From assembly GCF_000426705.1 (NCBI RefSeq), contig NZ_AUFW01000017.1:62001-126000 (forward strand): DNA of 64,000 bases. The letters are read 5' to 3'. Positions 1-10,081 of this stretch are shown in pieces (within the stretch, counting starts at the first letter, position 1; each line of letters opens with the position of its first letter). The stretch is from Spirochaeta cellobiosiphila DSM 17781 (GTDB lineage: Bacteria > Spirochaetota > Spirochaetia > DSM-17781). Made by a program: the position numbers and the translations under genes. The notes beneath the pieces are model-generated. The model saw nothing but the letters and a program-made list of their open reading frames with translations, had not been told where the DNA came from and searched no databases.

Positions 1-1
1 C

Positions 2-226
2 TTATTATCTTTTTTGTTATTGAAAGAATCTGAAGATAAAAACTTAATACTCAATCAAAGTTCTGGTGCTGGTCCTTTCAAATTGAATAGGGGTGCACAG
101 AAAATAATTGAGTATAATTTGTATGATGACAGTAGTGCCAATAAAAAACAAAGGCGTGGTTGGAAGATACTCAACTACCTTGCAACTCAATTTTTTGAAC
201 CCATGTTAAGGAAAAAAGATTTTTAA
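2..226 (+). CDS. C-terminal end of an unidentified protein (truncated by window edge)
   Basis: The reading frame is open from the first bases, so only the last 74 codons of a gene that begins upstream are seen. The fragment is polar and basic, ending in a run rich in aromatic and basic residues (GWKILNYLATQFFEPMLRKKDF region), with no motif I recognise. Its stop codon TAA overlaps the ATG of the following ATP-grasp gene by one base, so the two are probably cotranscribed and may share a pathway. A TTG inside the fragment could be read as a start, but nothing supports an independent 70-residue gene. Confidence 0.55.
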   Translation, partial: LLSFLLLKESEDKNLILNQSSGAGPFKLNRGAQKIIEYNLYDDSSANKKQRRGWKILNYLATQFFEPMLRKKDF

Positions 227-1374
227 TGAATATACTCCTCACAGGAGCCAGAGCTCCTTATACCTTAGATTTAGGCAGAAGATTATCCGCATTAAGACAT
301 AACATCTATTATGCGGATAGCTATTACCTGGCTTTGAGTCGATTTTCCAATACAGGACGAGCCTTTATAAAACTACCTTCTCCACGGTACAAGACAGAAT
401 CCTTTGTCCAAACATTAAAAGATAGTCTTATTAAATTTGATATTGATTGTCTTATTCCCACATGTGAAGAAATATTTTATATTGCACAAAACAGGTCAAG
501 GCTTCCTAAGAATGTAAATATTTTTTGCGATAGTTTTGATACTTTAAATCTCCTACATAATAAATATTCTTTTATAAAATTAGCCAAAAAAATAAGTCAT
601 AAGAATATTAAAATACCTAATACCATCCTGATTAATAAGACCAGTGATATAGAGGATTTTATTGACCATGATAAAAATTGGATTTTAAAACCAGTATATT
701 CTCGCTTTGGAGAAAGCGTTTTATCCCTTAACGATTTAAAACAAAAAAAGCTTCCTCAAATCACGGTTGAGAATCCTTGGATAGCACAAGAGTACATTAA
801 GGGTGAAGAGTATTGTTCCTATACAGTAATTCAACATGGTAATATTAAAGCTCATACAGTATATAAATCTCAATATCGAGCAGGAGGAGCTTCTACATTT
901 TTTGAACATTATCAAATTAGTGTTCTTGAAAAATGGATTGAAAAACTTGTTACTAATATGGGATTTCATGGTCAGATAGCTTTTGACTTTATCAAAACAG
1001 AAGAGGGTTATTACTATCCTATAGAATGCAATCCCCGAATGACCTCAGGATTTCATATTCTATGCCAATCCTCTCATTTAGATACTGTTTATATAGATCA
1101 GGAATCTGAAAGAATTTATCCTCTTCAAAAAGCGAATAAAATTGCCTTAGCCATGAAAATCTTCAATAGAAAAAATAACACACAATTTAAAGAGGATTTT
1201 AGACGTTCACGAGATGTCATATCCAGTCCCACTGATAGGTTTCCTGAATGGGGACAATATCTATCCTATTCCGGTTTACTTTTGAAAGCCCTGTTCAAAC
1301 AAATAAGCCCCATTGAAGCAAGTGTAGAAGATATTGCTTTTAGTCCCCTCATAATAGCAGACTCAGACCATTAA
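226..1374 (+). CDS. ATP-grasp superfamily ligase (carbamoyl-phosphate-synthase-like fold)
   Basis: A 382-residue protein with an N-terminal pre-ATP-grasp nucleotide-type fold starting NILLTGARAPYTLDLGR, followed by the ATP-grasp half: WILKPVYSRFG carries the ATP-binding lysine and FDFI...YYYPIECNPRMTSG the metal-binding Glu/Asn/Arg strand. Enzymes of this family join a carboxylate to an amine or other nucleophile through an acyl phosphate. The start ATG shares a base with the stop of the preceding gene. The 3' end runs 26 bp into the convergent ketosynthase gene, which places it beside the biosynthetic cassette on the other strand. Substrate cannot be predicted; a role in the same pathway is inference from position. 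Confidence 0.8.
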   Translation: MNILLTGARAPYTLDLGRRLSALRHNIYYADSYYLALSRFSNTGRAFIKLPSPRYKTESFVQTLKDSLIKFDIDCLIPTCEEIFYIAQNRSRLPKNVNIFCDSFDTLNLLHNKYSFIKLAKKISHKNIKIPNTILINKTSDIEDFIDHDKNWILKPVYSRFGESVLSLNDLKQKKLPQITVENPWIAQEYIKGEEYCSYTVIQHGNIKAHTVYKSQYRAGGASTFFEHYQISVLEKWIEKLVTNMGFHGQIAFDFIKTEEGYYYPIECNPRMTSGFHILCQSSHLDTVYIDQESERIYPLQKANKIALAMKIFNRKNNTQFKEDFRRSRDVISSPTDRFPEWGQYLSYSGLLLKALFKQISPIEASVEDIAFSPLIIADSDH

Positions 1375-2278
1375 TGGTTAAACCTGCTGCCGTTCCTAAC
1401 AACAAGATACAATCCCCTTCTTTGACAAGAGAATTATCCAGTGCTTGACTAAGCATATAAGGAACAGAAACCGCTACCATATTTCCATAATCAGCTACAT
1501 TATCAATGTATTTATCCTGAGGAATATTCAGTCGCTTCATTATAAAACTAAGGGCTTTACTCGCTTGATGAGGGATAACCTTATCAAAACTCTCAAGAGG
1601 GATTCCCCCTTCTGCCACATAATCCTTACAAAAAAGACTGACCTTGCTTATCGTAAAACGGAGAGCTTCTCTACCTTTCATATCAAATAAATAGTCTTGT
1701 AAGCGAGAAGGATCAAAGTGTTGGCCTTGCAAGTTACTTAAGCCTCCTCTGATTTCCGTATGATGAGCGCCTTCCCCCCAAGTATTTTCCTTGGCAAACA
1801 TAACACCTTTGTTCTTATCTGTTTTACTTATGATAAAAGCTGCTGCAGCATCACTGAATAGTTCATAACTTTCTTTTTGATCTTTGTTTAAACCTTGAGA
1901 AGGGACTTCAGCAGATACAATTAACACTTTTGCATATCTTCCCGCTTCTATAAGATAGGATATTGTATCTAGCGCAGTAATAAAACTAGTACAGGAAGTA
2001 TTAATATCCATACAAGGGATAGGTTTACTCGACCCTAACATTTCACTAATAAGAGAAGATGTAGACGGTATGGGCTGATACCCAACTGCACTGGCGAAGA
2101 CAATTAGGTCTATCTCATCTAAAGACAATCCTGCTCTATTAAGAGCTATGGTAATAGCATCAATCGTTAAGTTCTTATGATCTTGTCCTTCTCCCAACCA
2201 GAAACGCCTTTGCTCGCCAAAACGAATCATCCTTTGGCCGAGAGAGGTGCCATGTCCTAAGATTTCTAATTTATTCAT
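1349..2278 (-). CDS. 3-oxoacyl-ACP synthase III-like (thiolase-fold) condensing enzyme
   Basis: A 309-residue KAS III/OleA-type condensing enzyme, a little shorter than FabH or OleA (about 320-350). The catalytic triad is complete: Cys96 in DINTSCTSF, His237 in IPHQASKAL and Asn266 in DYGNMVAVSVP. It would condense an acyl thioester with another acyl thioester or malonyl-ACP. It is the last gene of the minus-strand operon; its ATG overlaps the stop of the adenylating-enzyme gene as ATGA. No acyl carrier protein gene is next to it, and it is not in a fab cluster, so a specialised product is more likely than housekeeping fatty acid initiation. FabH itself is the alternative. Confidence 0.85.
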   Translation of the reverse strand: MNKLEILGHGTSLGQRMIRFGEQRRFWLGEGQDHKNLTIDAITIALNRAGLSLDEIDLIVFASAVGYQPIPSTSSLISEMLGSSKPIPCMDINTSCTSFITALDTISYLIEAGRYAKVLIVSAEVPSQGLNKDQKESYELFSDAAAAFIISKTDKNKGVMFAKENTWGEGAHHTEIRGGLSNLQGQHFDPSRLQDYLFDMKGREALRFTISKVSLFCKDYVAEGGIPLESFDKVIPHQASKALSFIMKRLNIPQDKYIDNVADYGNMVAVSVPYMLSQALDNSLVKEGDCILLLGTAAGLTINGLSLLL

Positions 2279-3552
2279 AATCTTTTTATCCTTTTCAACT
2301 TTTGAGTAATGCGATGTTCATATTTTTTTATATCTAATTGAGGTTGTACAATCTGGAATTGATTCATTAACTTACAAAACTCTTCTTTGACAGAGCCCCA
2401 ATTGTCATCGTCTTCCCATTCTATGTAAAATACAATTAATTCTTCATCTACCTGAATGACCTGATACTGTTTGATACCATCTACATATAATAAAGTACGC
2501 CGAATCATATCTGGATATAATTTGACTTTTCCTCCACCTATTTGATCAAAGATAAAGATATCATCTTCTCGTCCCTCGATCTTATCTAAAGCCATAAAGG
2601 AACTACCACATTTACACTTTGTACTAGACTCCACTAATATATCATTAAGCCTGTACCTTATGATGGGTTGGGATTTTCTAGTAAAATCAGTAATGATTGG
2701 AATAAATCTTCCTGAACCAAGATCCTCTTTTTCAATAAATACAATATCTTCATTAAGATGAATTTTCCCCTCCTGACAGGTAAAACCTAGAAAACCTTCT
2801 GTGCTTTGATAGACCTGATGAATGTGCTTTTGCTGGAACACATTACAAAGTTCTTCTGCATCTTCTTTCTCTAAAACTTCTGCCACGGATATTACTTTAT
2901 TAAAGGTAAGAGGAAGCTTTCCCCCACGAATGTATTCAGCCAAAACAATTAATACTGAAGGAGGAGCAACAAGGATATTTGCTTTGAAATTCAACAAGTG
3001 CTCTATATGCTCATCCATTTTTTGATAGATATCATAGTAATGAAATGAGATACCAGGAGCATTCACATTTTCATACAGATTACTGTTGGCTCTTAGAAAA
3101 AAAGCTATACGAAAGGGAAAACCTTTTGGTGGAAGCATTCTTGCTAAGATAGCCCCTGTCCAAAGATCCATTTCTTTTTTGCTAGTAATAAATAATCCTC
3201 TATGGTCAGAAGTTCCTGATGATAATCCCACAGTGATATTATGATAAGTAGGAGAAAATTCTCTATTTCTTTCTGCAGCCAAAGCCAAATTAAAAGCTTC
3301 ATCCTTGGTTATATCAATGGTTACAAGGTCATTAAATCGTTCCATCATTTTTCTTTTATTCATGAGGGGAAGATCTGTAAAACGATGGATTATGTCTTTA
3401 CCGAATATTCTATAAAAAGAAGACTTCTTACATAGATAATGTAAATGTTTCTCTAAACGCTTTTTCTGTAATAGTTTTAATTTTTCCAAACTATAAAGAC
3501 CGGGATTTTTATACCTAAAGTAGGATTTTAAAATGACAAAAGGATTACTCAT
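2275..3552 (-). CDS. F390 synthetase/phenylacetate-CoA ligase-like adenylate-forming enzyme
   Basis: About 425 residues, of the coenzyme F390 synthetase-related clade of adenylating enzymes. The P-loop is SSGTSDHRG, followed by YQSTEG and YRLNDIL (adenylate-binding core) and IEGREDD before the small C-terminal domain; a CKC pair may bind a metal. It would activate a carboxylate as an acyl-AMP. I chose the ATG at 3552, which overlaps the stop of the preceding metallo-hydrolase gene as ATGA and has GAGG seven bases upstream; a TTG at 3558 is also in frame. In Ole pathways the equivalent position is taken by OleC, another adenylate-forming enzyme that closes a beta-lactone; equivalence here is inference. 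Confidence 0.82.
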   Translation of the reverse strand: MSNPFVILKSYFRYKNPGLYSLEKLKLLQKKRLEKHLHYLCKKSSFYRIFGKDIIHRFTDLPLMNKRKMMERFNDLVTIDITKDEAFNLALAAERNREFSPTYHNITVGLSSGTSDHRGLFITSKKEMDLWTGAILARMLPPKGFPFRIAFFLRANSNLYENVNAPGISFHYYDIYQKMDEHIEHLLNFKANILVAPPSVLIVLAEYIRGGKLPLTFNKVISVAEVLEKEDAEELCNVFQQKHIHQVYQSTEGFLGFTCQEGKIHLNEDIVFIEKEDLGSGRFIPIITDFTRKSQPIIRYRLNDILVESSTKCKCGSSFMALDKIEGREDDIFIFDQIGGGKVKLYPDMIRRTLLYVDGIKQYQVIQVDEELIVFYIEWEDDDNWGSVKEEFCKLMNQFQIVQPQLDIKKYEHRITQKLKRIKRL

Positions 3553-4346
3553 AAACAAACCTCTTCTTGCCCATGGGAAGTTAATATTTGAAGAGTATCG
3601 TCTTCATTTATCAAAGTTTTTATTTTTTGTATGGTTGTAACATACTCATGGTAGTTATACTGAATCTTTCTAGCTATACGCTTTAAATTCACATCTAAAA
3701 GATCGACTCCCCAAGAAGCATCAGTAATATAAAAGATGTGTTTCTCTGGTAGATAAATTCCCATATGCCCTCTGGCATGGCCGGGAAGATCAATTAACCA
3801 AAGGGAATTATCTTCCCACAAATCATATCCAACAAAGCCTTTCAATGGGCTTTGATCATTTAACTCATAGGTCGTTGTACGCTCAGATAAATCAGAAGGC
3901 AGGTGTTCTTTAAAAACAGCCTCCTTTAAATGATATTTCCCAATATTTCCATACGCTTTTGAAGACATTATTATTGGAATATGAGGAAGGGCTCTTAGAT
4001 TCCCGATGTGATCAGGATGCAAATGAGTTACTATGATTTGTTGAATATCATCGACCCCAATGCCATCCCCCCTTAACTGTTTAACAATACTATTATCCCT
4101 TTTATAAAAAGTAGGATTAATTAGTCGATACAGGAAGGCTTTATAATGATAAGACATTATATAAGGACCATACCCAGTATCAACCAATACCTTTCCATAT
4201 TGACTATGCTCTATAAGCAAAGTTTTTGCAGGAAAGGAGCGTATCTCTTTTTTGGCATCAATAAAGACTCTATTCATGTGGTTATTACAATAACCACATT
4301 CGTATATTTTTATTCTACTTATCTTGTTCTTTATACCACTTGGCAT
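3549..4346 (-). CDS. metallo-beta-lactamase-fold hydrolase, lactonase-type active site
   Basis: A 265-residue MBL-fold enzyme with a full dinuclear metal site: THLHPDH (His108, His110, Asp112, His113), the GHARGH segment (His194), ITDASWG (Asp209) and TSHG (His258). This HxHxDH-H-D-H layout is the one seen in AHL lactonases and glyoxalase-II-like hydrolases, so a cyclic ester or thioester is a reasonable substrate guess. I chose the ATG at 4346, with AAGGA about ten bases upstream; a TTG at 4367 is an alternative. The gene overlaps the end of the reductase gene by about 32 bp, showing tight translational coupling inside the operon. Confidence 0.85.
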   Translation of the reverse strand: MPSGIKNKISRIKIYECGYCNNHMNRVFIDAKKEIRSFPAKTLLIEHSQYGKVLVDTGYGPYIMSYHYKAFLYRLINPTFYKRDNSIVKQLRGDGIGVDDIQQIIVTHLHPDHIGNLRALPHIPIIMSSKAYGNIGKYHLKEAVFKEHLPSDLSERTTTYELNDQSPLKGFVGYDLWEDNSLWLIDLPGHARGHMGIYLPEKHIFYITDASWGVDLLDVNLKRIARKIQYNYHEYVTTIQKIKTLINEDDTLQILTSHGQEEVCL

Positions 4347-5313
4347 AGATATCCATTCCTTCTTCAACAGATATTAATGGCTTATAATCTAATATTTTTT
4401 CTGCTTTAGATATATCAAGAGTTTGACTATAACCCAAGGTTATTAATGTATATAAAGTTACCGGAGGTTCTTCATATATCTTGAAGAATTTATACCAAGC
4501 TTCTATAGCGCTAACAATAAGTTTAAAAAGAGGCAGCGGTAACTTTAAAAATTTGACAGGTTTATTTATTTTATTCATAAACATGGTAATCATTTGTTTA
4601 AAAGTCATAGGCTCACCGTTAGTGATATTAAATATTTGAGTATTTACATTATCTTTTATTAAAGCAAGATAGATGGAATAAGATACATTATCCACATATG
4701 TGATATCCATCAAGTTTTTACCAGACCTTATTAAGGGAATACCTTGTTTATCATTGGCTTCCATTAAACGGGGAATCAAACTGGTATCTCCTATACCAAA
4801 TAAACCTCGTGGTCTAATAATCGTCCATTCAAAGGATGGATTTATCTGGCTTTTAATAAGAGTTTCAGCCATGCGTTTGCTTTTTATATAATAATTGAAT
4901 GGCTTCCCGGTAATTATACGTTCCTCAGGTATATCAAACTGATTTTCTGGCGAACAATAAATACTTGGAGAAGAAATATAAATGAGACGCTTGATTTCTA
5001 ATTCTTCGCAGATTTTAAGAATATTCTGCGTACCCTGTACATTACAATGATAAAAGTCATCCCACTTTCCCCATAGGGTAGACAAAGCAGCAGCATGAAT
5101 TACATGGGTACACCCTAAAGCTGCTTTACGTAATTCTTCTATATCTAATAAATCACCTTGATAAAATTGGGTCAAAGTCGATTTTAACAAATTTCCCTTA
5201 ATGGAATTACGACCAAAGGCATGAATAATAATGTTATGTTCTTCTAATAATTTAATGAGCGAGCTACCTAAAAATCCAGTAGCTCCTGTAACTAATACTT
5301 TCATTTCTGACAT
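4315..5313 (-). CDS. NAD(P)-dependent 3-beta-HSD/OleD-like reductase (extended SDR)
   Basis: About 332 residues. The N-terminal VTGATGFLG nucleotide-binding motif, the HAAALSTLWG..YHCNVQGT stretch and the YYIKSK active-site Tyr/Lys mark an extended short-chain dehydrogenase of the 3-beta-hydroxysteroid dehydrogenase/isomerase family. The middle motif resembles OleD, the NADPH-dependent 2-alkyl-3-ketoacid reductase of long-chain olefin synthesis. Together with a ketosynthase and an adenylating enzyme this suggests reduction of a beta-keto intermediate. Start candidates are TTG 5349 (directly after the ATPase stop), ATG 5313 and ATG 5304; none has a clear ribosome-binding site. A sugar-nucleotide epimerase is a less likely alternative. 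Confidence 0.82.
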   Translation of the reverse strand: MSEMKVLVTGATGFLGSSLIKLLEEHNIIIHAFGRNSIKGNLLKSTLTQFYQGDLLDIEELRKAALGCTHVIHAAALSTLWGKWDDFYHCNVQGTQNILKICEELEIKRLIYISSPSIYCSPENQFDIPEERIITGKPFNYYIKSKRMAETLIKSQINPSFEWTIIRPRGLFGIGDTSLIPRLMEANDKQGIPLIRSGKNLMDITYVDNVSYSIYLALIKDNVNTQIFNITNGEPMTFKQMITMFMNKINKPVKFLKLPLPLFKLIVSAIEAWYKFFKIYEEPPVTLYTLITLGYSQTLDISKAEKILDYKPLISVEEGMDIYAKWYKEQDK

Positions 5314-5351
5314 GGAATGCAATATAACACTATATAGAAGCCACAGCAACT

Positions 5352-6935
5352 TTATGCAGTATGATAAGGCATAAGAAGAGGAGCTTCTTTTCCAAGATCA
5401 ATCCAAGGAACATTATATAAATCAGTTAATGCCTTAGGACTTAAAACAGATTTAACTTTTCCATAATTGGTAACAGATCCGTTATTCATAAGAATAACTT
5501 CATCTGCATATCGACAAGCCTGCCAAGGATCATGGAGAACCATTATAACTGTTGTCCCGAATGTTTTATTTAATTTTTTTACACATTCCAAAACATCAAC
5601 CTGACTTTTTAAATCTAAGAAACTAGTTGGCTCATCAAGAACGATCATATCAGATTGCTGAACCAAAAGGCGAGCAAAGCGAACGCGCTGTTGCTGACCA
5701 CCACTAAGGGAATGAATATCAGTTTTCTTATACTCCAACATATTCACAGTAGACAGAGCTTCATCAATTAAAGCTCTATCAGTTCTGTTCCATTGATCAT
5801 ACCAATGGTTATGTCGATAACGTCCTAACTGAACATATTCGATGACACTACAGTATTCTGGTAAATCTTCTTGTTGATACAGCATGGCTATTTTGGCTGC
5901 TCTTTTATGAGCATTTAATGTTCTAGTGTCTATATTATTTAATAAAATTTCACCAGATTGAGGATGGAGATCAGCAATCAGACCTTTAAGAAGGGTAGAT
6001 TTTCCACACCCGTTGGGACCAAGAATTACCGTTATAGTCCCTTGCTTTATTTCTAAGTTCAATTCATTGATGATAGTCTGGTCACCATATCCAAGCTTAA
6101 CATTATTAAATGTCAGGGAGGAAGGAAAAGAATCATCAGTAGACTTTTGAATGGTCTGGTTATTAATAGGAAGAATGATAGGAAGATTATTAGGGGCATT
6201 AGTTTTATACTCTTCACACGCTGTAGAATATAATCGGCTCATCAAAGAAGAATTAAATATATCATTACCCTTACCAAAAGCCATAACGTCTCCATTTGCC
6301 ATGGCAATAACATTATGGGCTAATAGGGAAGCTTCATTCAAATCATGGAGAACTACTATAACAGTTTTGTTTTCTATATGACACAAGTCATCAATTAGTT
6401 GGAGTATCTCATGACGATGGTTGATATCTAAATAGGTAGTAGGTTCATCTAATAATAATATCTCCGTGTCTTGAGCTAAAGCCATTGCTATCCAGGCCCT
6501 CTGTCTTTGCCCTCCTGATAATTCATCAATAGGTTTATCAGCTAATTCCATTAATCCTGCTATAGACAAGGCTTTATTAATGGCTACTTCATCCGAATCC
6601 TGGAGATTCTGAAAAATACCCATATAAGGATATCGACCTCGTTTAACCAATTCTTTTACAGTAGTCTGGATTTGCTGACTACTTATCTGTGGTAGGAAAC
6701 CAAGCTTTCGTGCGTATTCACTTGGTTTATATTGACTTATGTCTTTACCATTCAGATAGATATATCCTTGTTTCATGGGCAGCAACTTAGCGATAGCCCT
6801 AAGTAAAGTACTCTTACCAGAACCATTCGGTCCTATTAAGCAGGTTATTTCTCCACTACTGATTCTCTGGTTTAATTCCTTTATTATTTGCTTTTGCCCA
6901 TATCCTGTAGACAAGTCATTAATATCAAGATTCAT
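5352..6935 (-). CDS. siderophore/cobalamin-type ABC transporter, two FecE-like ATPases fused in one chain
   Basis: A 527-residue protein with two complete FecE/BtuD-type ATPase domains in tandem. Domain 1 has Walker A GPNGSGKST (35-43), signature LSGGQ (139-143) and LLLDEP; domain 2 has GPNGCGKST (304-312), LSGGQ (408-412) and VLDEP. A roughly 30-residue linker joins them. FecE proteins are usually about 260 residues and act as homodimers, so this chain would form the whole nucleotide-binding pair. Neither half shows a lost motif. It lies two bases after the upstream permease gene and is followed directly by the reductase gene, so importer and biosynthesis genes are in one transcript. Confidence 0.93.
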   Translation of the reverse strand: MNLDINDLSTGYGQKQIIKELNQRISSGEITCLIGPNGSGKSTLLRAIAKLLPMKQGYIYLNGKDISQYKPSEYARKLGFLPQISSQQIQTTVKELVKRGRYPYMGIFQNLQDSDEVAINKALSIAGLMELADKPIDELSGGQRQRAWIAMALAQDTEILLLDEPTTYLDINHRHEILQLIDDLCHIENKTVIVVLHDLNEASLLAHNVIAMANGDVMAFGKGNDIFNSSLMSRLYSTACEEYKTNAPNNLPIILPINNQTIQKSTDDSFPSSLTFNNVKLGYGDQTIINELNLEIKQGTITVILGPNGCGKSTLLKGLIADLHPQSGEILLNNIDTRTLNAHKRAAKIAMLYQQEDLPEYCSVIEYVQLGRYRHNHWYDQWNRTDRALIDEALSTVNMLEYKKTDIHSLSGGQQQRVRFARLLVQQSDMIVLDEPTSFLDLKSQVDVLECVKKLNKTFGTTVIMVLHDPWQACRYADEVILMNNGSVTNYGKVKSVLSPKALTDLYNVPWIDLGKEAPLLMPYHTA

Positions 6936-6937
6936 AT

Positions 6938-7948
6938 CTATTCCTTAGTTCTGATCAACAGATAGAGAAAGTAAGGTGCTCCTATACCTGCAATAACAGT
7001 ACCGACAGGAAGACCTTCGGGAAGTACATTTTGAACAAATATATCAGCTACTAAAACCATAATAGCCCCTAGATTTGCACATAATATTAGAGAGCCTATA
7101 TCGATTGCCTTGCTTAACATTCTGCTAATTCGAGGAACAATCAATGCAACAAAAGAAATCGGTCCAGCCACAGAAACTGCAACAGCACTCGATAGACTGG
7201 CAAGAATTAAAGCCATTAGCTGATACCTCCTAACAGCCAGCCCGATTGATGTTGCAGTCTGACTACCCACTTGTAGTAACCGCAACTGTCGTTGAATGAT
7301 TCCAATTAAGAAAAGAAGAGGAAAAACCAAAAGTAATAACTTTATGTCATTCCAATTGGAAGTATAGAGACTTCCTACCATCCATCGATAGGAAGCATTT
7401 ACATCATGGATATTACCTTTTACTAATAGATAATTAACAAGAGCTGTGAATAAAGCATTGAAGCCTATACCAACTAATATCAATTTTAAGGGATTTATAA
7501 TATCCCTTGATGACAAAAAATAAACCAACAAGGCTGTCAACATAGAGGCCACAAAAGCCACAAAAGGAATAAATGAGGAAGACAATCCTGAAATGATTAT
7601 TAATACAACAGCTGCACTAGCACCTGTATTTATACCCACAATATCAGGGGAAGCTAAGGGATTCTTGAGCAAGGTCTGGAATACCATTCCTGATAATGAA
7701 AAAGCCATCCCCACTAAGATAGCTGATAAAATACGGGGCAAACGTAATCCACGAACAATAAAGATTGTTCTTTTATCAGATAATCCTAATATTCCATCAA
7801 TTACTTCTTTTAGACTTAAACCTAAAGACCCGAGAGAAGACGCCCATATAGCCAACACTAATAAAACAATAAAAGAAAAAATTATTAATAGCCATTGCCT
7901 ACTTTTTATCCGAAAAGAGACAGGTCCTATACTAATATACTTGATCAT
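6938..7948 (-). CDS. FecCD-family iron-siderophore-type ABC permease
   Basis: A 336-residue polytopic inner-membrane protein of the FecCD/BtuC family, with the characteristic GLRLPRILSAILVGMAFSLSG segment near residues 65-85, LASPDIVGINTG, and GPISFVALIVPRISR in the C-terminal half. About nine to ten hydrophobic segments are visible, as in BtuC-type permeases. The start ATG overlaps the stop of the preceding permease as ATGA. Together with the other FecCD protein it would form a heterodimeric channel for a metal-chelate or related cofactor. Confidence 0.92.
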   Translation of the reverse strand: MIKYISIGPVSFRIKSRQWLLIIFSFIVLLVLAIWASSLGSLGLSLKEVIDGILGLSDKRTIFIVRGLRLPRILSAILVGMAFSLSGMVFQTLLKNPLASPDIVGINTGASAAVVLIIISGLSSSFIPFVAFVASMLTALLVYFLSSRDIINPLKLILVGIGFNALFTALVNYLLVKGNIHDVNASYRWMVGSLYTSNWNDIKLLLLVFPLLFLIGIIQRQLRLLQVGSQTATSIGLAVRRYQLMALILASLSSAVAVSVAGPISFVALIVPRISRMLSKAIDIGSLILCANLGAIMVLVADIFVQNVLPEGLPVGTVIAGIGAPYFLYLLIRTKE

Positions 7949-8937
7949 TCGAATTTCAACCTCCGGCTGGAAGCTATCATTATTAAAAGAGGTGCACCGA
8001 TCATTGCTGTAACAATTCCCACTTGAACTTCTGATGGAACAGCGATTATACGTCCAATAGTATCGGCTAACAATAGAAAAGCAGGTCCTTGTATTATAGA
8101 TAAGACCATGATCTGTCGATAGTTAGTTCCTATCATTTTACGTGCTATATGAGGGACTGCCAGACCAACAAAGGCAATTGGCCCTGCTATACTTACAGAA
8201 CTTGCAGCAAGACAAACAGCGAAAACAGAGGTCAATAGACGAACAGATTTAGAATTCATCCCAATACTTTTAGCTCTCTCTTCTCCCATATTTAGGATGT
8301 TGATTCTAGGAGCCAATATAAATAGCCCCAGTGTGGATATTAAATTAATAGGTAACAAATGGTAGAAGTAATTCACATTTCTACCACTTATAGAGCCAAC
8401 AAGCCAGAATCTAAACTGGTCCAGGATTTCCTGATTCAATAAAAGAAGTCCTGAGGTCCAAGCACTTAACAAAGAACTAACAACAACACCAGCCAATACC
8501 ATTTTAGAAGGGGATACAACAGAATTACCTGCCATTGCTATCGCTAATACAATAAGAAGTGTTACAACTCCCCCTACAAAGGCGATTAAGAACAGACCAA
8601 AAGCATTTATAGGAGAAAGGAGTTGATACCCTAATACTATAGCAAATGCAGCGCCATTGTTGACTCCTAAGATAGAAGGTCCACTCAAGGGGTTATTCGT
8701 AATACCTTGTGTAGCAGCACCAGCTAGAGCAAGAGACATCCCAACTCCCAATCCAATAATTGTTCTGGGAATACGTAAATCGTGAATAACAATGTGCTCA
8801 TATATCTGGGCATTAAAATGCAAAAGAGCCTCCCATAACTGATGAAAAGTTATGGGAAGAGTTCCAATAGTAATACTAAGCCAAATAGCAATTAAAAGAA
8901 CAACCAAGTTCAATATATATAATTTTACAATTTTCAA
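7945..8937 (-). CDS. FecCD-family iron-siderophore-type ABC permease
   Basis: A 330-residue FecCD-type permease with LRIPRTIIGLGVGMSLALAG, NPLSGPSILGVNNG and GPIAFVGLAVPHIAR motifs. It begins with TTG, 20 bases after the stop of the binding-protein gene, with only a weak GAGTGG as ribosome-binding site; no better in-frame ATG is present. It pairs with the next permease gene. Its motif sequences match the family at all the usual places, so it should be functional. Confidence 0.92.
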   Translation of the reverse strand: MKIVKLYILNLVVLLIAIWLSITIGTLPITFHQLWEALLHFNAQIYEHIVIHDLRIPRTIIGLGVGMSLALAGAATQGITNNPLSGPSILGVNNGAAFAIVLGYQLLSPINAFGLFLIAFVGGVVTLLIVLAIAMAGNSVVSPSKMVLAGVVVSSLLSAWTSGLLLLNQEILDQFRFWLVGSISGRNVNYFYHLLPINLISTLGLFILAPRINILNMGEERAKSIGMNSKSVRLLTSVFAVCLAASSVSIAGPIAFVGLAVPHIARKMIGTNYRQIMVLSIIQGPAFLLLADTIGRIIAVPSEVQVGIVTAMIGAPLLIMIASSRRLKFE

Positions 8938-8959
8938 AGGACCACTCTGTTGTTCTTAT

Positions 8960-9991
8960 CTATCTCATGTTTTCAGGAACTAGGGTTTCAGGATCACCAT
9001 CAATGGCAGCTTCTAAAGCAGGTACTAACTCATCCAAGGCATAATCAATGCTAAGAGGACTAGCAAAAGAAAAGGCTCCACCTAGTAACTTACCGACAAA
9101 AAACTCACGTCCTTCTGTTGTTGCTTTTAATGTCTTGCGTAAAGTGAATTGTCTCATTGCTTCAAGACCTTTTGCCCCTACACCTATCCAAATAATAACA
9201 TCTGTATCAAGAAGATCCATTCGTTCTTCACTAAAACTAAGATAGAACTTTTCACCTGCAATCTCATCATATTCAGGAGGGATAATAAAGCCAAGTTCTG
9301 TTAATAAACGGCTACGACTATCAGCTGAAGCATAAGCACCTAATTCATTCTGAAAAACAAAAGCTATTGCTGCTGTAGCACCTTGAAATTGGGGATGGCT
9401 ATTTTTAATAGAGTCAAATCGATCTTCAATATAGGACACAACCTCTTCTGCTTTCTCTGCTTTCCCAACGACTTGTCCCATTATCCTAGTCTCAACCTGC
9501 CATGGAGTTCCATAATCAACATAATCAGCAGGTTGAGCAATAACAGGTGCGATTTGTGACAAAGTGTCATATTCTTTCTGGGTCATTCCTGAAGAAACTC
9601 CCACAATAAGATCAGGATTCAAAGAGGCTATTATTTCAAAATTTAATTCACGTGAGGACAGCACATAAGGAGGATCACTGTCTCCTAACGCTTCTTGAGC
9701 CCAAGGCCATAAAGAATTCGGATAGTCACCATACCAATCTCTGATAGCAATAGGAACAACACCTAAAGCAAGAAGAGCTTCATGTTCTGTATACCCAACA
9801 GAGACAATTCTAGTGGGTTGGGACTCTATAGTAGTGCTTCCATACTTGTGATCTATAGTAAGAGGAAACCCCTTGGAGAGAAGGTTCCCCTTCTCTGTAA
9901 CATCAGTACGTTCTTTATCACCGTTAGCAAATACGTTCATAGATATAGTTAATAATGCTGTAAATATAATTAATGATTTAGAAAAATTCAT
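8960..9991 (-). CDS. iron-siderophore-type substrate-binding protein
   Basis: A 343-residue FepB/FecB-type periplasmic binding protein. A Sec signal peptide (MNFSKSLIIFTALLTISMN) ends in VFANGDKE, cleaved by signal peptidase I rather than lipidated since no lipobox Cys is present. The mature part has QPTRIVSVGYTEHEALLALG, the RDWYGDYPNSLWPWAQ segment common in one FecB subgroup, and LNPDLIVG. I chose ATG 9991 because GGAG lies five bases upstream; a GTG at 9997 is in frame. It is the first gene of the eight-gene operon and its promoter is visible just upstream. The ligand is unknown; a ferric siderophore is the default inference. Confidence 0.92.
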   Translation of the reverse strand: MNFSKSLIIFTALLTISMNVFANGDKERTDVTEKGNLLSKGFPLTIDHKYGSTTIESQPTRIVSVGYTEHEALLALGVVPIAIRDWYGDYPNSLWPWAQEALGDSDPPYVLSSRELNFEIIASLNPDLIVGVSSGMTQKEYDTLSQIAPVIAQPADYVDYGTPWQVETRIMGQVVGKAEKAEEVVSYIEDRFDSIKNSHPQFQGATAAIAFVFQNELGAYASADSRSRLLTELGFIIPPEYDEIAGEKFYLSFSEERMDLLDTDVIIWIGVGAKGLEAMRQFTLRKTLKATTEGREFFVGKLLGGAFSFASPLSIDYALDELVPALEAAIDGDPETLVPENMR

Positions 9992-10005
9992 ATACACTCC
10001 TAACT

Positions 10006-10041
10006 GATATAGTTTATACAGCTTAACTATAGTTAAAGCAA
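10006..10041 (-). promoter_or_regulatory. promoter of the importer/biosynthesis operon with palindromic operator
   Basis: On the minus strand there is a -35-like TTGCTT (10041-10036), a spacer of exactly 17 bases, and a -10-like TATAAA (10018-10013), followed by the binding-protein start with its own ribosome-binding site. The spacer holds a perfect 14-bp palindrome, TTAACTATAGTTAA (10023-10036), which also covers the end of the -35. A palindrome between the two hexamers is the classic position for a dimeric repressor. The sequence does not match the usual Fur box, so the regulator is unknown. Confidence 0.55.
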
Positions 10042-10081
10042 GAGGTCTATGGCAATGCTAATTATGATTTAATGGTAGGAG

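Follow-up and report, generated by a model that had tools for sequence, protein, structure and literature searches.

Do the biosynthetic genes that run in tandem with an iron importer in Spirochaeta cellobiosiphila DSM 17781 make a compound that the importer takes back up, or do they belong to a pathway of their own? The question arises from a 64,000-nucleotide stretch of contig NZ_AUFW01000017.1 (positions 62,001 to 126,000; this whole stretch is called the window here and is numbered from its first base), where an original prediction had described eight minus-strand genes as an Ole-like biosynthetic cassette co-transcribed with a siderophore-type importer. We find that the cassette architecture is real and larger than first noted. 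Its four enzymes, a ketoacyl synthase III (KAS III)-like condensing enzyme, a short-chain dehydrogenase/reductase (SDR), a metallo-beta-lactamase (MBL)-fold hydrolase and an adenylate-forming ligase related to F390 synthetase, are conserved together beyond chance. This four-enzyme core spans several phyla, and no description of it was found in the open-access full-text papers that were searched by cassette or family names.

The evidence for the unit comes from a survey of one genome per species, scanned with an alignment of six F390-like ligase sequences. The best 80 of 573 confirmed relatives were picked by likeness to the query, and are rich in near-identical Streptococcus loci; together with 14 plasmid-derived loci (14 examined, out of 80 plasmid records that matched), the loci of genomes G429 and G168, and the window, they make up the 97 loci scored, 72 of which extend at least 5 kb on both sides of the F390-like gene. 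All four enzyme genes lie within 6.5 kb of the ligase in 93 of the 97, which bears out the earlier claim that they form a genuine unit. Among the four exceptions, two are on contigs shorter than 4 kb (L052 and L058) and in one (L034) the genes are spread across roughly 10 kb; a Pseudomonas amygdali megaplasmid (L039, 9857-13445) carries the F390-like ligase and an ATP-grasp relative, with the other core genes not nearby. Within the best 80 of 573, the titles are mostly those of Bacillota, including many Streptococcus species that carry the core, alongside Jonesia, Microbacterium, Fusobacterium, Acholeplasma, and metagenome-assembled genomes of Campylobacteraceae and Saccharibacteria, and the plasmid records extend the cassette to alpha-, beta- and gammaproteobacteria. 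One record labelled as a plasmid, the 2.1 Mb L032 (NZ_CP084075.1) of Fusobacterium vincentii, is possibly a mislabelled chromosome.

Escherichia coli carries a seven-gene version beside narI (L035, 9041-15922), in which the KAS III, SDR, MBL and F390-like genes are accompanied by three lipid-type genes, for a PAP2 protein, a fatty-acid hydroxylase of the sterol-desaturase type, and a fatty-acid desaturase. This version occurs in 672 of 5,426 complete genomes, and in 671 of them the match covers 80% or more of it. Among 392 genomes of the window's own phylum, the ligase family cut-off (TIGR02304) is passed in two, the window and G168. F390 relatives at E <= 1e-40 are found in 4 of 394 genomes of the class; the window and G429 have cassettes, and G455 and G245 were rejected, having F390 relatives without other core genes in the stretches examined (7,267 bases for G455). 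Public annotation of TIGR02304 neighborhoods lists the same KAS III, NAD(P)-dependent oxidoreductase, MBL fold hydrolase and F390-related genes as contiguous sets in Pontibacillus, Paenibacillus, Paraburkholderia, Ketogulonicigenium, Paracoccus, Rhizobium and E. coli. These neighborhoods differ from that of the window in having other accessory genes and in lacking a FecCD importer adjoining the core, and we know of no function for any of them. For Desulfotalea, one older report (PMC2649909) describes an acyl-CoA-ligase-like gene annotated as 'F390 synthetase' within a fatty-acid cluster and suggests that it takes part in attaching glycerol.

The relatives also show that the gene set recognized at first was incomplete. 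The eight listed genes are present, but two more, for an ATP-grasp ligase-type protein and a tandem GCN5-related N-acetyltransferase (GNAT)-fold protein, were overlooked. Because several relatives carry both alongside the four enzymes, we count them as members of the cassette. The order is KAS III, ATP-grasp, SDR, MBL, F390, GNAT in Paenibacillus and KAS III, SDR, MBL, F390, ATP-grasp, GNAT in Paraburkholderia, and Bacillus, Ureibacillus, Lederbergia and Metabacillus crassostreae likewise have ATP-grasp and GNAT genes with the four enzymes. In G429, a member of the window's class, all six genes are on one strand (GNAT, ATP-grasp, SDR, MBL, F390, KAS III). In the window, the ATP-grasp gene (226..1374, plus strand) converges on the KAS III gene, with a 3´ overlap of 26 bases. 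The GNAT open reading frame comprises 414 codons (L040, 14983-16227) and lies mostly outside the window. It starts at C3:60982, upstream of the window, and its 3´ end occupies bases 1..226 of the plus strand, where its stop overlaps the ATP-grasp start (TAATG).

The four core genes are all encoded on the minus strand, and their active sites were compared in 28 cassette proteins each, from the window and 27 loci chosen for diversity. The roles of the conserved residues are those generally known for the families. The KAS III-like enzyme (1349..2278) has an ACP_syn_III domain match and is nearest to PRK07204, under that model's cut-off, with 266 bits against NF005541 (cut-off 402). The predicted Cys-His-Asn triad is present as C96, H237 and N266, and is kept in 28/28 proteins. 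It falls short of the housekeeping FabH model TIGR00747 (156 bits, cut-off 292), and the genome has a separate housekeeping FabH at C2:10647-11615, which scores 399.5 bits against the same model. The adenylate-forming ligase (2275..3558) belongs to TIGR02304, 'F390 synthetase-related', in the PaaK branch (461.7 bits, curated cut-off 251.9), and its SSGTS and YQ.TEG motifs, Y302, D306, G329-R330 and the C-terminal K420 are kept in 27 or 28 of the 28. The lactonase-type MBL-fold hydrolase (3549..4367; Lactamase_B) has the HxHxDH metal site, with H115, H117, D119, H120, H197, D216 and H265 in all 28. Models of the acyl-homoserine lactone (AHL) lactonases AttM and AiiA top its NCBIfam list, all far under their cut-offs; the best lactonase equivalog gives 56.7 bits where 390 are required. 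The extended SDR (4315..5349, first ATG at 5313; Epimerase/3Beta_HSD) resembles OleD and 3beta-hydroxysteroid dehydrogenases, and Y154 and K158 are kept in 28/28. Models of the OleD type, 2-alkyl-3-oxoalkanoate reductases, top its list at 199.8 (NF042423) and 179.6 bits, both far from cut-offs of 580. Judging by these residues, the cassette enzymes look functional.

The ATP-grasp protein is PRK06849-like but under that model's cut-off, matches ATP-grasp_3 at 45.2 bits and NF005315 at 314 bits (cut-off 406), and gave no useful match in a sequence search of the PDB. Its residues K113, K155, D254, E267, N269 and R271 are invariant in 8/8 proteins. Foldseek places the L-amino acid ligase RizA and PylC nearest to the window's predicted structure (m008e325de269, predicted local distance difference test (pLDDT) 77.0); by Z score many ATP-grasp enzymes tie, with a carbamoylphosphate-synthase-like chain first. 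The GNAT protein matched no Pfam or NCBIfam family, and its profile retrieved nothing useful from the PDB sequences. It aligns with eight homologues at 27-35% identity, and its structure was approached through the Bacillus niameyensis homologue, which shares about 31% identity and was modelled at pLDDT 76.5 and a predicted template modelling score of 0.77. The best match of that model is Sbb17, an aminoacyl-tRNA-dependent peptide synthase (Z 16.6; 3.8 Å over 259 residues), followed by FemX (Z 16.3; 4.8 Å over 285) and MprF (Z 15.3; 3.6 Å over 253). The homologue and these aminoacyl transferases have the tandem-GNAT fold in common, at about 10% identity; aminoacyl-tRNA use and a lipid acceptor are hypothetical here. 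Both predicted structures fit an aminoacyl head group in the window; neither is proof of one.

What varies around the constant core bears on what the pathway may make. We compared matches near the core (within 3 kb, 546 kb in total) with those farther away (861 kb). GT28-like glycosyltransferases matched 56 times near, 55 of them on the same strand, and once far. For GT21 glycosyltransferases the near and far counts were 8 and 0, for ATP-grasp 13 (in 12 loci) and 0, for GNAT 9 and 0, for fatty-acid hydroxylase 2 and 0, for DUF3419 2 and 0, and for sulfotransferase 3 and 0, the last on the opposite strand; in the Rhodobacterales versions a divergent sulfotransferase stands beside the cassette. 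In Rhizobium and Shinella (L141, 6964-13302; L143, 4952-11293), ATP-grasp is replaced by DUF3419, which is followed by a GNAT of the window's family; the Shinella assignment comes from our own homology scan. A PDB search with DUF3419 gave no match; the family includes the betaine-lipid enzyme BtaA, an aminocarboxypropyl transferase. Exchange is also seen between close relatives. The window, G429 and Lacrimispora (L042) form a trio in both the F390 and the KAS trees with a Shimodaira-Hasegawa-like approximate likelihood ratio test (SH-aLRT) value of 100, and the head genes are ATP-grasp and GNAT in the window and G429 and GT21 in Lacrimispora. These were quick trees of 66 rows each that kept only seven Streptococcus loci and had the genome's own FabH as the only FabH reference; deep branching in the KAS tree is poorly supported, with Ketogulonicigenium KAS grouping with FabH (SH-aLRT 92) and a deepest split at 32. 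In cassettes of Enterococcus, Fusobacterium and Paenibacillus, the gene next to GT21 recurrently encodes a protein of at most 226 amino acids with no convincing Pfam match (L054, 6260-6937; L056; L110, 7447-8124; L032; L114).

A lipid or other acyl acceptor would account for a core that stays the same while the head changes, and on balance we favor the reading in which the core four, the ATP-grasp protein and the GNAT form one pathway to an acyl-derived, probably lipid-like conjugate. Each step is assigned from enzyme class. The KAS III would load an acyl chain onto Cys96 and condense it with malonyl-acyl carrier protein or another acyl thioester, the SDR would reduce the resulting ketone, and the MBL hydrolase could release a thioester or lactone. 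Adenylation of the acid and its transfer to an acceptor would fall to the F390-like ligase, and an amino-acid head group would be added by the ATP-grasp ligase together with the FemX/MprF-like transferase. In this scheme the core four would be the same from one bacterium to another, and the genes for the head group would be swapped.

Several points weigh against this proposal. The lipid nature of the product is read from neighboring genes. The queries for the near and far counts were themselves drawn from near genes, and the near-identical Streptococcus loci inflate the numbers; moreover, the search for head-group genes came up empty in 19 of the 97 loci, in part because of the thresholds used and because some contigs are short. 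A BtaA-type role for DUF3419 is presumed, and Pfam labels the family as of unknown function. The GNAT structure is that of a homologue modelled at the confidence given above, tandem GNATs also include plain acetyltransferases, and Sbb17, its best match, acts on a soluble antibiotic. Finally, an importer of the NMT1 type, with a BPD_transp_1 permease, binding protein and ATPase, recurs near Streptococcus cassettes.

More tentatively, and with somewhat less than even confidence, we suggest that the cassettes define undescribed bacterial acyl conjugates with a constant four-enzyme core and interchangeable heads (sugar, sulfate, a DUF3419 product or aminoacyl), carried by streptococci, Lachnospiraceae, fusobacteria, bacilli, rhizobia and about one-eighth of complete E. 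coli genomes, with the window holding an aminoacyl form driven by the promoter of an iron importer. Should the product prove to be such a lipid, with a head that can be exchanged, it would stand for a class of surface or signalling lipids that has so far been overlooked.

A further alternative is a diffusible small molecule in place of a lipid, an aminoacylated antibiotic or signal built on a short acyl chain. The fold match to the peptide synthase Sbb17, the L-amino acid ligases nearest to the ATP-grasp model, and the patchy distribution of the cassette, plasmids included, are all consistent with such a product. We nevertheless consider it unlikely, given what accompanies the core in relatives, namely GT21 glycosyltransferases (68 bits against the HpnI model, cut-off 310) and fatty-acid hydroxylase and desaturase neighbors.

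The lipid-like conjugate has also to be weighed against a small metallophore or signal made by the enzymes and re-imported by the co-transcribed FecCD importer, as first proposed. The importer is complete. Upstream of the SDR gene, all on the minus strand, lie a fused double ATPase (5352..6935, two ABC_tran stretches), FecCD permease 2 (6938..7948; PF01032, 265 bits), FecCD permease 1 (7945..8937; PF01032, 299 bits) and the substrate-binding protein (8960..9997; PF01497, Peripla_BP_2). The solved chains nearest to the binding protein are 4mdy, 7fhm, 4pm4 and 4hmo, named in the PDB as periplasmic binding, iron-transport or iron-compound-binding proteins; we take 7fhm and 4pm4 to be FecB2 and 4hmo to be PiaA. 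These are also the parts of other ATP-binding cassette (ABC) importers of this type, from which the window's differs in having its ATPase as one fused double protein. That the binding protein belongs to an iron-compound class, that an acyl conjugate bearing an amino acid could bind metal, and that the genes lie in a tight same-strand order would all suit re-uptake.

The survey points the other way. Homologous clusters lacking the transporter, which the original prediction had named as evidence against itself, are seen in all 96 other loci as far as adjacency goes; a FecCD importer adjoins the four enzymes in the window only (1/97 loci). FecC/FecD homologues occur in one further locus, that of Ketogulonicigenium (L038), where the FecCD gene is about 6 kb upstream of the cassette with repAB and two opposite-strand genes intervening. 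No importer was found in the 19.9 kb around the six-gene cassette of G429. Conversely, G203, of the same class, has two fused-ATPase importers (41% and 39% identity), one with a related binding protein, and an F390 search of that genome gave no match at E <= 1e-20. In the 78 genomes searched for the fused ATPase, with 19 candidates scored in each, G203 was the only one besides the window to match at E <= 1e-60; the 78 included no other genome of the window's family or genus. Core neighbors elsewhere are glycosyltransferases and lipid-type enzymes.

The streptococcal importer, with its permease family in 17/91 and its binding-protein family in 16/91 loci, shifts the balance very slightly from the lipid-like conjugate toward re-uptake, but it is of a different family. 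This NMT1/THI5-type importer lies upstream of the cassette in S. sanguinis (L085, 4579-7096), separated from it by the gene for ribosomal protein S4, and downstream in the S. infantis group (L071, 8447-10982), with a PLD-type gene between; we tentatively read it as part of a streptococcal neighborhood. Since the FecCD importer adjoins the cassette only in the window, re-uptake of the product is left unsupported and seems decidedly improbable, and the importer, initially considered part of the pathway, was dropped from it as a default after the 97-locus survey. On present sampling, its position beside the cassette looks like a local arrangement, functionally unsupported. It is an iron-compound ABC importer that may share a promoter near 10,050 with the enzymes, nothing found here ties its cargo to their product, and shared orientation in one genome should not be taken as function.

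That the cassette makes a beta-lactone or olefin in the manner of Ole is very improbable. Some likeness comes from the joint presence of a condensing enzyme, an OleD-like SDR (its best-scoring models, as given above) and an adenylate-forming enzyme, and PMC7064751 describes oleACD clustered with a glycosyltransferase gene in actinobacteria. Against it, the OleA catalytic glutamate is replaced, the ligase belongs to a different family, and the position expected for OleB is taken by an MBL protein. Glu117-Pro is found in all aligned OleA except two (PMC7064751), and OleA has been found by the signature EPxx[AS]x(14,18)DxxNACL (PMC7158056). The window's KAS III reads QPIPS, 18 residues, DINTSCT in the same register, so that Gln68 stands where OleA has Glu117; the residue is Gln in 27/28 cassette proteins and Lys in L041. 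For the ligase, none of six NCBIfam matches at E <= 0.001 (TIGR02304 and PaaK/F390 relatives) is named OleC. The resemblance to Ole fails, therefore, at the OleA glutamate and at the OleC family. Two details of the earlier description, that the adenylating enzyme is of a clade other than OleC and that the MBL protein takes the place of OleB, held up. Because the OleA signature fails and the ligase matches no OleC-named family, Ole membership was ruled out. The cassette further differs from Ole in its additional ATP-grasp and GNAT genes; it may nonetheless share the Ole logic of condensing, reducing and activating.

As to the layout of the window, the eight minus-strand reading frames were found in the order and places described, and profile matches to Pfam and NCBIfam agree with the family given to each. 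The statement that no gap among them exceeds about 22 bases is correct only when the TTG at 5349 is taken as the reductase start; with the first ATG, at 5313, 38 bases separate the reductase from the stop of the importer ATPase (5352-5354). Our site scan listed neither a terminator-like nor a promoter-like element at 5300-5420, and for this reason a single transcript covering the importer and the enzymes is plausible; the promoter-like part of the scan is weak evidence, with 31 sites observed and 42 in shuffles. The G+C content of the cassette is about 0.34 within a window range of 0.32-0.41, a composition that says nothing on recent transfer. A candidate promoter, TTGCCA-18-TATAGT, recognized by consensus match only, lies upstream of the binding protein (10023..10055, minus strand). 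Its -10 element is covered by a perfect 14-base palindrome, TTAACTATAGTTAA (10023-10036), which has one exact match in the genome and one site with a single mismatch. A metal regulon acting through this palindrome was considered and rejected, there being two sites a strand at up to one mismatch versus eight for the backward control. A 12-pair hairpin with a T-rich tail lies inside the coding sequence of the FecC permease (8829-8859, minus strand).

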